From: Bacillota bacterium
Lineage (GTDB): Bacteria > Bacillota > Sulfobacillia > JAJZYS01 > JAJZLH01
Direction of reading: 5' to 3'
Assembly (NCBI GenBank): GCA_021850485.1
Contig: JAJZLY010000028.1
Coordinates: 1-8,689, forward strand
DNA length: 8,689 nt
Numbering within the stretch: position 1 is the stretch's first letter; each line of letters opens with the position of its first letter. The notes below the pieces were generated by a model. The model worked only from the letters and a program-made list of their open reading frames with translations, searched no databases and was not told the origin of the DNA. This document shows, piece by piece, positions 1 through 3,197 of this stretch. A program made the translations under genes and the position numbers.

Positions 1-417
1 AAGCGACAGCGTTGCAACCTCCACGGCCTGAACCAGACCCGCTCGCCTCGCCTCCACCGGACCACCGAAGCGGATCGCTCGAGAAAGGCACTCGTCGGCC
101 AGAGGGATAGAGAAACTCACCCGATACGAAGCGATGCGACCTTCTGAGAGCTTCTCCATGTCCTTCATGTGCCGAAGGCTCACCTGGACCTGCGTCAGTG
201 TTGGGCGTTCGTTGCCTTCAGCGGCCAGCAACACTGCGCTCTGGAGGTCGCAGATGGCCAGCGCCTTCCATTCCCCTTGGTCAGATAATCTGCAAATCTC
301 GACCGCAACCTCATCTGCGAGTGCTCCCGCCACGCTCCTGCGCCCTTTGGCCATGGCCTGGGATGTCTCAGCCAGCATGTCGTCGATCTCAGTCTTCACT
401 GCCGGCCCCCCATTCAT
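1..417 (-). CDS. Unrecognised element protein, partial (C-terminus beyond left edge)
   Basis: An open minus-strand frame runs from an ATG at 417 to the window edge without a stop, giving about 139 residues. It begins MNGGPAVKTEIDDMLAETSQ and continues as a mixed alpha-helical, soluble-looking protein (for example VSLRHMKDMEKLSEGRIASY around residues 83-102). I see no Walker motif, membrane segment or metal-binding cluster and do not recognise the family. Its ATG overlaps the TGA of the gene before it (ATGA, 414-417), a strong sign of coupled translation and of a real gene. There is no good Shine-Dalgarno before 417; a GTG at 399 follows a GGGGGG run and is an alternative start. Confidence 0.6.
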   Translation of the reverse strand, partial: MNGGPAVKTEIDDMLAETSQAMAKGRRSVAGALADEVAVEICRLSDQGEWKALAICDLQSAVLLAAEGNERPTLTQVQVSLRHMKDMEKLSEGRIASYRVSFSIPLADECLSRAIRFGGPVEARRAGLVQAVEVATLSL

Positions 418-884: not shown

Positions 885-905
885 CACAACCACCCCCAAC
901 GAAGA

Positions 906-935
906 AGGCCCGACCCTCCGAAGAGAGCCGGGCCT
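906..935 (-). terminator. Intergenic hairpin with UUCG tetraloop
   Basis: On the minus strand this is a 13-bp stem (AGGCCCGGCTCTC against GAGGGTCGGGCCT, with two G-U pairs) closed by a C(UUCG)G tetraloop, one of the most stable RNA loops. It lies 13 nt after the stop of the helix-turn-helix gene and is followed by TCTTC, a poor U-tract. It resembles an intrinsic terminator, but no promoter fits between it and the next start, so it may be leaky or serve as an RNA processing or stability element. Two similar hairpins occur at 1728-1757 and 2133-2165. Confidence 0.6.
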
Positions 936-948
936 GGAGTCTCCAGCG

Positions 949-1704
949 TCATTCCCTGTCGTCGACCAGGATGCGCCGGCACAGGGCAGCCACCTGCCGG
1001 GCCAGCTGCGCCGACAGCATCTTCTCCGCCTCCGGAGACGGAGGGATTAGGATCAGGGTCTGCAGGGCCAGTCCGTGCAGATCGAGGGCTTGGGCTCGGG
1101 AGAGGAATGGCGTCGGCGACACGGCCGCAGGATGCTCGACCGGTTCTGCAACGAGTTCACTCAGATGGTTGGCTGGGGTCGTCAACTGAGTGCCCTCGGT
1201 TGGAGCTGCCTCTTCTCCCTGTACCCCTCCGGCTGGCACCAGGTGAGAGCGCCGCCCCGTGGCGACAACTACGGGCTCGGCGCCGTGGGCCAGCCCGTTC
1301 GCCTTGACGGCGACTGCACGCTCTGGTTTGACGGTCTTGTCGTGGTCGGCGCCTTCCGCCCTGGTCCATCCCTCCTGGACTTCCCAGCGCTTCCCGGTTG
1401 CCCAGGTCACGCCCAACTCCTTGCAGATCCTGCTCAGGGTGTAGCCTGCCGCGTACATGGTGCGGCCCTTCTCCCGCAGTTTGGCTGCCCTGTCTCCCAC
1501 GATGTGTGCTGCCACTCCTGACCCTCCTCGCCGCCTCACGATCTCTGCTGGGGCAGCCTCGTGACGGATCACCCGCTGGATCTCCTCGGGCGTCAGCCGG
1601 TAGGTCACCACCGGGCCCGTCTCCTCGAGGATCCGTGCGGCAAGCTGCACCCCCATCAGGTCTGGCTCGAAGCCGCTTCTGCGCAGCCCCTGCGGCAAGA
1701 TCAC
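949..1704 (-). CDS. Helix-turn-helix protein of the element, 251 aa
   Basis: The clearest domain is a helix-turn-helix at about residues 77-114: a basic helix (KLREKGRTMYAAGY), then TLSRICKELGVT and ATGKRWEVQEGW. This 'ICKELGV..xTxKRW..xxGW' pattern resembles resolvase-like HTH units and the N-terminal DNA-binding part of some phage small terminase subunits. A middle region rich in Ala, Gly, Pro and Thr (about 120-200) looks like a linker, and a predicted helical tail (SRAQALDLHGLAL to the C-terminus) could mediate oligomerisation. The GTG at 1704 follows GAGGGGG (1713-1719) with 8-nt spacing. The frame stays open further upstream but would run through a hairpin and the previous gene. A small-terminase role is possible; a regulator or replication-linked DNA binder is equally allowed. 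Confidence 0.65.
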   Translation of the reverse strand: MILPQGLRRSGFEPDLMGVQLAARILEETGPVVTYRLTPEEIQRVIRHEAAPAEIVRRRGGSGVAAHIVGDRAAKLREKGRTMYAAGYTLSRICKELGVTWATGKRWEVQEGWTRAEGADHDKTVKPERAVAVKANGLAHGAEPVVVATGRRSHLVPAGGVQGEEAAPTEGTQLTTPANHLSELVAEPVEHPAAVSPTPFLSRAQALDLHGLALQTLILIPPSPEAEKMLSAQLARQVAALCRRILVDDRE

Positions 1705-1727
1705 GATGCTCACCCCCTCGACAGAAA

Positions 1728-1757
1728 GGCCCCGACCGGAGTTGTCCGGCCGGGGCC
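1728..1757 (-). terminator. Intergenic hairpin followed by TTTCT
   Basis: Minus-strand 12-bp stem (GGCCCCGGCCGG against CCGGTCGGGGCC, one G-U pair) with a 6-nt loop ACAACT, followed by TTTCTGTC. It begins 5 nt past the stop at 1763 and ends 23 nt before the next GTG start at 1704. This is a good intrinsic-terminator shape, yet the next gene's SD sits directly after it. Confidence 0.65.
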
Positions 1758-1762
1758 CAATG

Positions 1763-2107
1763 TCAGCGATCGAGGTCGAAGACCGTCTCCGCCACCCTCG
1801 CCGTGGCGATCCGGCGGTGTCGGGCCAAGACCAGCGTCCAGTCCGCGTTCGCATACTCACGGACCGTCTCATCCATAGCTGCGTGATGCCGGCCACCCGG
1901 ATTCGAGTATGCACGGACGGTCTTCTGGGTCAGGGCCTTGAGCGTGCCGGCAGTGATCCCGACGTCGTGGAGCGTGTGGTCCTCAGCCCCGGGATCCTCG
2001 AGCCGGAGTCTCCACCGCCCCTTCTCCTGGCACGCGAACAGGCTCTGCTGCCGACCCTGGCCGTCCGTGATGGTCCCGATCAGCAGCGCATTGGCGCTCG
2101 GTACCAT
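1763..2107 (-). CDS. Unrecognised element protein, 114 aa
   Basis: A 114-residue protein of unknown function. The N-terminal half looks like a beta-rich small domain (MVPSANALLIGTITDGQGRQ, then SLFACQEKGRWRLRLEDPG). The C-terminal half holds two copies of a short motif, KTVRAYSNP and ETVREYANA, separated by a His-rich turn (GGRHHAAMD), then DWTLVLARHRRIATARVAET. The ATG at 2107 follows GGAGGTGGTGAG (GGAGG at 2119-2123); the spacing from GGAGG is 11 nt, slightly long. The open frame continues upstream to 2275, but that would cross the hairpin at 2133-2165 and part of the preceding gene, so the shorter form is preferred. There are hairpins on both sides. Confidence 0.6.
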   Translation of the reverse strand: MVPSANALLIGTITDGQGRQQSLFACQEKGRWRLRLEDPGAEDHTLHDVGITAGTLKALTQKTVRAYSNPGGRHHAAMDETVREYANADWTLVLARHRRIATARVAETVFDLDR

Positions 2108-2132
2108 GTCTCTCACCACCTCCAACAGAAAG

Positions 2133-2165
2133 AGGCCCCGACAGGGGATTGCCCCGCCGAGGCCT
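2133..2165 (-). terminator. Intergenic hairpin followed by CTTTCT
   Basis: Minus-strand 14-bp stem (AGGCCTCGGCGGGG against CCCTGTCGGGGCCT, with three G-U pairs) and a 5-nt loop CAATC, followed by CTTTCTG. It begins 4 nt after the stop at 2170 and ends 25 nt before the next ATG at 2107. Its 3' arm shares CGGGGCCT and the TTTCTGT tail with the hairpin at 1728-1757. Confidence 0.65.
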
Positions 2166-2552: not shown

Positions 2553-2689
2553 TCGCGGAGGGCAGACTGCACTTCAACGCAGTAGTCGCCCCTCGCGGGG
2601 AGACGGGAAATGCGCTATCTGAAGAGGGCTGGCGGCCATTCGCGGGGTGTGCTGACCTGACCCCAGGTATAATTCGCAATCAATAGGTC

Positions 2690-2717
2690 GGGGGTTCGAT
2701 TCCCCCCGCCTCCACCA
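2690..2717 (+). ncRNA. ssrA: 3' end fragment of tmRNA gene, proposed attachment site (attR)
   Basis: A complete T-arm is present: GGGGG (2690-2694), the seven-base loop TTCGATT, and CCCCC (2702-2706). It is followed by the 3' strand of an acceptor stem, CGCCTCC (2707-2713), discriminator A and encoded CCA (2715-2717). The ending GCCTCCACCA is typical of bacterial tmRNA. A tRNA 5' strand (GGAGGCG) is absent about 75 bases upstream, and no tmRNA-like 5' end or tag-coding region is seen in the 350 bases upstream. It is therefore a truncated copy, as left by integration into the gene's 3' end. A tRNA fragment is the less likely alternative. Confidence 0.7.
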
Positions 2718-3017
2718 GGTTTAAGTTGCCCAGATTGAGTTCAGAGTGTGCGGCTCCGATCACATGGTCGGGGCCACATTGCGTTGAGCAGACGATAGTC
2801 CGGAGCCGTGGCATGGAATAGTCGGCCGATCTGCTCGCAGCACCGTCAGACCGGCTCGGAACTCGGTTTGCGCTCGATCGGCCGTCCGATCGAATGCTGG
2901 TTGGTCTTTCCCGCCCGCTGCCGTCGTCCACTCCGGCGCTGATGGTCTGGCTATTTCCTCCATCAATGGTGTAACATTGCTTTCATGCTCCGAGATCCAA
3001 TTGGGGAGGCATCTGAA
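2718..3017. other. Chromosomal intergenic stretch with an inverted repeat
   Basis: No gene can be supported in these 300 bases. An 8-bp inverted repeat (TCGATCGG, loop CCGT, CCGATCGA) lies at 2874-2893. It has no T-run immediately after it, so a protein-binding palindrome or RNA hairpin is as likely as a terminator. A possible -10 (TAACAT, 2972-2977) lies upstream of the lysine-rich gene, but no convincing -35 accompanies it. Confidence 0.4.
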
Positions 3018-3197
3018 GTGGCAAAAACCACGGAGACCATGAAGCAGGGGATGAAGGACATGCACGAGACCGCTCAAGCTAAGGTCCAGCAGATGAAGAG
3101 GGTCCTCAACAAGAAGACGAAGGATGCCAAGAAGACGGTGGCTAAGGCCACCAAGACCGTGAAGAAACAGGTGGCAAAGATGGATCGGCCCGGCTAG
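3018..3197 (+). CDS. Lysine-rich histone-H1-like small protein, 59 aa
   Basis: A very basic 59-residue protein with 15 lysines. The first half is amphipathic and methionine/glutamine-rich (MKQGMKDMHETAQAKVQQMK). The second half is a run of Lys-Thr-Ala-Val units (KKTVAKATKTVKKQVAK) that repeats with a period of about seven: V41, V48 and M55 fall on one face. It resembles the tails of histone-H1-like bacterial proteins, so non-specific DNA or RNA binding is plausible. A coiled-coil stress or surface protein is the alternative. The GTG at 3018 has an excellent SD, GGGGAGG (3003-3009), at 8 nt. An in-frame ATG at 2985 would add 11 residues but lacks an SD. It is convergent with the C-S lyase gene. 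Confidence 0.7.
   Translation: MAKTTETMKQGMKDMHETAQAKVQQMKRVLNKKTKDAKKTVAKATKTVKKQVAKMDRPG

Follow-up and report, generated by a model that had tools for sequence, protein, structure and literature searches.

Conjugative plasmids and phages are known to place terminators between same-strand genes, and the locus described here, a real but fairly ordinary finding, is most likely a case of this kind, with the terminator-studded conjugation operons of pLS20 and Tn916 and the actinophage phiC31 as its nearest precedents. More than 20 terminators have been reported in the conjugation operon of pLS20 (PMC8955417), and terminators of conjugation operons serve both insulation and graded expression (PMC8955417, PMC11658703). 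In Tn916, which carries the terminators T1-T3, one terminator shields the genes of the element against transcription coming from the host (PMC11658703). In Cluster K mycobacteriophages, several genes carry the ESAS, an inverted repeat located directly upstream of a start-site motif (PMC3203893), and the mycobacterial I-shaped terminators are GC-rich hairpins that follow soon after the stop codon and possess a weak U tail or none (PMC12288462).

The window, i.e. the whole 8,689-nt stretch analysed, is an entire contig (C9) of a 1.61-Mb Bacillota genome that is 97% complete and assembled in 33 contigs. Among named genomes, Bacillota MAGs hold the closest relatives of its SigH. The sequence shows in the stretch 1-2672 the right end of an integrated element whose target was a tRNA-Ala gene, and an intact tRNA-Ala(CGC) with an adjacent tyrosine integrase gene is found in the same genome at C25:160203-161553. 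The element stretch contains five genes, all on the minus strand (Table 1), and none of the five had a match in Pfam or PHROG. The start of C9 has no sequence in common with the ends of any other contig, which makes position 1 an assembly dead end; for this reason the promoter region of the element is out of view, and most of the element is absent from the assembly. Phage, plasmid and viral collections and one scan of genome contigs yielded no relatives of the element. Just outside it, at 2985-3197, lies a small lysine-rich ORF of 70 aa (KKTKDAKKTVAKATKTVKK), histone-like or coiled.

Table 1. Coordinates of the genes, hairpins, ribosome-binding sequences and attachment repeat in the element stretch of the window.
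Feature	Position	Strand	Motif or tail	Basis or match
Element gene, 139+ aa, runs off contig	1..417	-		no Pfam/PHROG match
Element gene, 157 aa	414..887	-		codon score alone; no Pfam/PHROG match
SD-like sequence between hairpin 1 and 157-aa gene	890..897	-	GGGGGTGG	sequence
Hairpin 1, 13 pairs, UUCG loop, terminator-like	906..935	-	TCTTCGTT	
Element gene, 251 aa	949..1704	-		one weak partial homolog, sister species
SD-like sequence between hairpin 2 and 251-aa gene	1710..1717	-	GGGGGTGA	sequence
Hairpin 2, 14 pairs	1727..1758	-	TTCTGTCG	
Element gene, 114 aa	1763..2107	-		C23 homolog, 91% over the first 69 residues; a relic in G001
SD between hairpin 3 and 114-aa gene	2117..2123	-	GGAGGTG	sequence
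Hairpin 3, 14 pairs	2133..2165	-	CTTTCTGT	
Element gene, 94 aa	2170..2454	-		44-47% homologs on C17 (same genome) and in sister species
45-bp att repeat	2673..2717	+		equals 3' part of tRNA-Ala(CGC)

The three GC-rich minus-strand hairpins, described in the initial annotation as a regular module between consecutive element genes, are present where claimed, with stems of 13-14 pairs, and occupy gaps of 61, 58 and 62 nt (hairpins 1, 2 and 3). As also claimed, each begins 4-13 nt past a stop codon and is separated from the next start by an SD sequence: hairpin 1 lies 13 nt past the stop at 949 and 21 nt ahead of the GTG at 884 (18 nt if the GTG at 887 is used), hairpin 2 lies 4 nt past the stop at 1763 and 22-23 nt ahead of the GTG at 1704, and hairpin 3 lies 4 nt past the stop at 2170 and 25 nt ahead of the ATG at 2107. 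The distances of 25, 23 and 21 nt given earlier are correct as values but were listed in reverse, the coordinate order being 21, 23 and 25. At the fourth junction, the gene start at 417 overlaps the stop of the preceding gene at 414, leaving no gap and no hairpin. Folded as RNA with their flanks, hairpins 1, 2 and 3 reach -31.8, -31.6 and -30.5 kcal/mol, with z values of -2.4, -3.0 and -1.7 against shuffles, and stems as long as those observed arose in 98, 7 and 14 of 2000 dinucleotide shuffles of the respective gaps. A repeat family, D4, links hairpins 2 and 3 (1711-1739 and 2117-2145, 72% identity). Rfam gave no match in the window at the gathering score, and within 800-2500 only matches far below it.

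In the reading that we favour, with a probability of about two in three, each hairpin would be a compact intrinsic terminator of the preceding gene, at which transcription stops incompletely and continues by read-through. As RNA polymerase leaves a gene, the GC-rich hairpin would form, with the next ribosome-binding site beginning about 10 nt behind it; the short, C-interrupted U tail would make the stop incomplete, so that some polymerases enter the next gene, or all of them if modified by an antitermination system, should the element have one. The likely outcome would be a transcript that falls stepwise along the string of genes, and a likely added effect, while the element is integrated, would be insulation of its genes from stray and host transcription. 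Termination at the hairpins, the extent of their leakiness and the expression of downstream genes through them are what we infer from the sequence. At all three sites a stable GC-rich hairpin is found on the transcribed strand past the stop, and a generic terminator scan passes sites 1 and 3 (2 found, 0.8 expected). Three U directly after a G-C stem have been cited as critical for terminators (PMC8955417); UUU in this position is found only at hairpin 2, and the U tails are short at all three.

Two further observations bear on how the genes behind the hairpins could be reached. A scan of 1-2720 for sigma-70-like promoters, whose consensus promoters of GC-rich hosts can escape, found none, so expression of the downstream genes through the hairpins, by the read-through proposed earlier, can fairly be supposed. 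In addition, the Rho domains PF07498 and PF07497 gave no match in three genomes of the same genus (G000, G001 and G002, each 96-97% complete), while 9 of 14 control genomes scored; the apparent genus-wide loss of Rho implies that hairpins should carry termination. When an antiterminator gene was looked for, as had been proposed, a second NusG-domain gene of the RfaH/LoaP type was found in none of these three genomes, each having one NusG, and the phage Q-type family PF06530, the one Q family tried, had no match in them. At the level of sequence, the single NusG and the lack of PF06530 speak against RfaH/LoaP- and Q-type systems, but most of the element, where an RNA-based system such as canT or conAn2 would be sought, is missing from the assembly. 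Among the interpretations offered at the outset, leaky termination is hence the best fit, also since the hairpins resemble the host's own terminators, and antitermination has gained no positive support.

Comparable hairpins of the host were surveyed over nearly the whole genome, 1,612,044 bases, with genes called by a simple codon-plus-SD scorer, cruder than Prodigal, counting as hairpins those that are GC-rich, of at least 10 pairs and of -16 kcal/mol or better. Such hairpins occupy 24/76 convergent, 76/455 same-strand and 6/128 divergent gaps. The tails are short and enriched in T at positions 2-6, with T frequencies of 0.40-0.58 at the best positions as compared to 0.18 genome-wide. Concentrated after stops and few in divergent gaps, these hairpins thus behave like terminators in marking the ends of genes. 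Among same-strand gaps of 35-90 nt, 18 of 219 in the chromosome (element stretches excluded) hold a hairpin versus 3/3 in the window, a difference (Fisher p 7e-4) that is biased since the site was chosen for its hairpins. By a strict rule, which missed hairpin 3 as its upstream gene scores low, 19 compact stop-hairpin-SD-start modules were counted in the genome, 4 of them in element stretches of C9 and C25, and about 14 per 1.6 Mb belong to the chromosome, spread over other contigs. Thus, the module is not exclusive to the element, yet is much denser there. Its hairpin also starts closer to the stop: the five element sites lie at 4-13 nt as compared to a chromosomal median of 24 nt (Mann-Whitney p 0.004, for chromosomal hairpins within 100 nt of a stop and element sites that had been selected for their hairpins). 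The related arms and tails that had been taken to indicate one hairpin family are real insofar as two pairs of modules are related; as one special family they are borne out in part only, given the like modules in the chromosome, and a general hairpin repeat family was rejected, because beyond the layout most modules share no common sequence.

The proposed search of related elements found a homolog of hairpin 1 on contig C23 and hairpins in an element of the sister species G002, while most modules proved unrelated in sequence. The C23 hairpin (414-451) matches hairpin 1 with its flank at 82% identity across 51 bp (E 3e-6) and lies 21 nt ahead of the homolog of the 114-aa gene. With an integrase gene divergent upstream, it sits between divergent genes, no same-strand stop precedes it, and it could be a relic or a hairpin serving the downstream gene. 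The junction reads as hairpin 1 fused to the start of the 114-aa gene, with a common GTTGGRGGTG box at the seam, which suggests, from this one case, exchange at the boundary. A frameshifted relic of the 114-aa gene is also found at G001:C28:31248-31392, close to a tRNA-Ala(GGC) gene, where a related element was probably once integrated in G001 too.

The element of G002, with genes for a relaxase (TrwC) and a T4SS coupling protein, carries hairpins in 5/14 same-strand gaps of 35-200 nt versus 43/356 for the chromosome of the genome to which the window belongs (p=0.024). Since this element was chosen through protein homology, irrespective of its hairpins, it provides the sole enrichment test free of hairpin selection, and the enrichment in this sister-species conjugative element is modest. 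A small ORF adjoining its TrwC relaxase and T4SS coupling genes matches residues 20-76, in the N-terminal region, of the 251-aa protein (44%, E 1e-6). The 157-aa protein had a weak match in G023 (E 8e-4) that was set aside, as the region is 41% GC and lacks such hairpins. In two species, a homolog of the 94-aa gene (L030:1717-1980 and L116:3065-3301) appears to adjoin one and the same pair of chromosomal genes, so that the gene seems to have an ortholog in the chromosome as well as its copy in the element.

Two further modules occur in mobile-looking DNA at C25:173803-174270, beside ArdC-like and SpoVG genes, one of them reading stop, 4 nt, hairpin, TTTCTTGT, GGGGGTGATC and TTG. The SpoVG-domain gene there (L009:2473-2814, C25:174472-174813) adjoins the ArdC-like antirestriction gene, and an IS21-type pair borders. 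On the same contig, a defence-like island not far from the integrase (C25:166951-171769; L008:6952-8772, 10037-11770) comprises two genes for SMODS nucleotidyltransferases and one for an Eco57I-type methylase. A perfect hairpin of 21-22 bp with A/T flanks on both sides, located between a 260-aa gene and an excisionase-like HTH gene at C25:161860-161907, looks like a two-way terminator.

The main rival to leaky termination is RNA processing, a doubtful alternative in which the hairpins would be intercistronic processing or stability signals, with RNase III cleavage or an exonuclease block setting the half-life of each gene's mRNA and no termination involved; such a block would protect the upstream gene from 3' attack and the downstream gene from RNase J-type 5' attack. 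Very stable stems that lie 4-13 nt past one stop and directly ahead of the following SD would suit this role, RNase III is encoded in the genome, and the C23 hairpin heads a gene that has no same-strand gene before it. However, typical RNase III sites have longer stems than these 13-14 bp, and the T-enriched tails, the bias to follow stops and the scarcity in divergent gaps genome-wide are traits of terminators. A variant of termination itself, unlikely in our view, is that translating one gene permits transcription of the one behind it: a ribosome at the end of the upstream gene would sit on the 5' arm and keep the hairpin from folding. This is conceivable as the hairpins start only 4-13 nt past the stop, and is not rated higher because those of the sister-species element lie 14-39 nt past it. 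If true, it would represent a Rho-free operon polarity in a genus that has apparently lost Rho.

The C23 fusion is what mainly raises the quite unlikely alternative that hairpin and SD box together provide short homology for gene exchange, so that their spread would reflect recombination as well as gene control; there, a hairpin like hairpin 1 precedes the homolog of the 114-aa gene, which in the window is preceded by hairpin 3, and the seam falls at the shared box. It is, however, a single chimaera, most modules are alike in layout only, and termination as the main role stays compatible with such exchange. Very unlikely is a control of translation in which sequence ahead of the hairpin masks the SD across the stem, allowing the next gene to be translated only if the upstream gene is. 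On C23, the GGAGG of the hairpin copy has a potential partner in CCUCC, and the SD is nearly all paired (SD unpaired probability 0.01-0.16), and at hairpin 1 CUCC faces GGGGG and is partly paired; hairpins 2 and 3, however, lack such pairing, with SD unpaired probabilities of 0.39-0.76, and hence SD masking cannot explain the set and its sequestration was rejected as a general rule. That the hairpins, being inverted repeats in a mobile element, are DNA-level sites without an RNA role (protein-binding palindromes, recombination or replication sites) is scarcely credible, since the arms vary between sites with pairing kept, the order of stop, hairpin and SD is constant on the coding strand, and no common palindrome sequence exists.

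Among the described systems, pLS20 resembles the leaky termination proposed here in that its intrinsic terminators, too, separate genes of one strand in the mobile DNA of a Firmicute. In the pLS20 operon, T-tailed hairpins were found in 7/17 gaps, one of them 28 nt ahead of the next start. The pLS20 terminators are, however, AT-richer with true T-runs, whereas the hairpins of the window are GC-rich; conAn processive antitermination is proven there, and none was found here, where most of the element is unassembled; and a conjugation domain is absent in the genes of the window, while the TrwC-relaxase element of G002 carries similar hairpins. Tn916 likewise has terminators within an integrated element, but three named sites per whole element as compared to one per short gap here, together with the canT antiterminator RNA, which was not identified in the assembled part of this element. 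The phage phiC31 shares the high GC content and GC-rich hairpins in same-strand gaps, present in 10/27 such gaps of at least 35 nt, two of which leave 14 and 19 nt between hairpin end and following start, although the hairpin sequences are other ones and the phage is unrelated. Some phiC31 terminators reportedly work without poly-U tails, as Ingham et al. are said to have described in 1995.

The ESAS is similar in layout, with an inverted repeat ahead of a start, but its repeats have a shared consensus and there is little support for an mRNA hairpin; membership was rejected, since the 13-bp SAS GGGATAGGAGCCC gave 5 matches at 3 mismatches where 4.1 were expected, none at the junctions. The I-shaped terminators share a GC-rich hairpin soon after the stop and a weak tail, but belong to another phylum, whose mycobacterial hosts rely largely on Rho, which is apparently absent in this genus. 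As an isolated sequence observation the locus carries modest weight; should leakiness or gating by translation be borne out, the terminators would provide a simple setting of expression per gene without promoters. Beside these systems, it adds an unstudied, apparently Rho-less Bacillota lineage to the mobile elements with terminators between same-strand genes.
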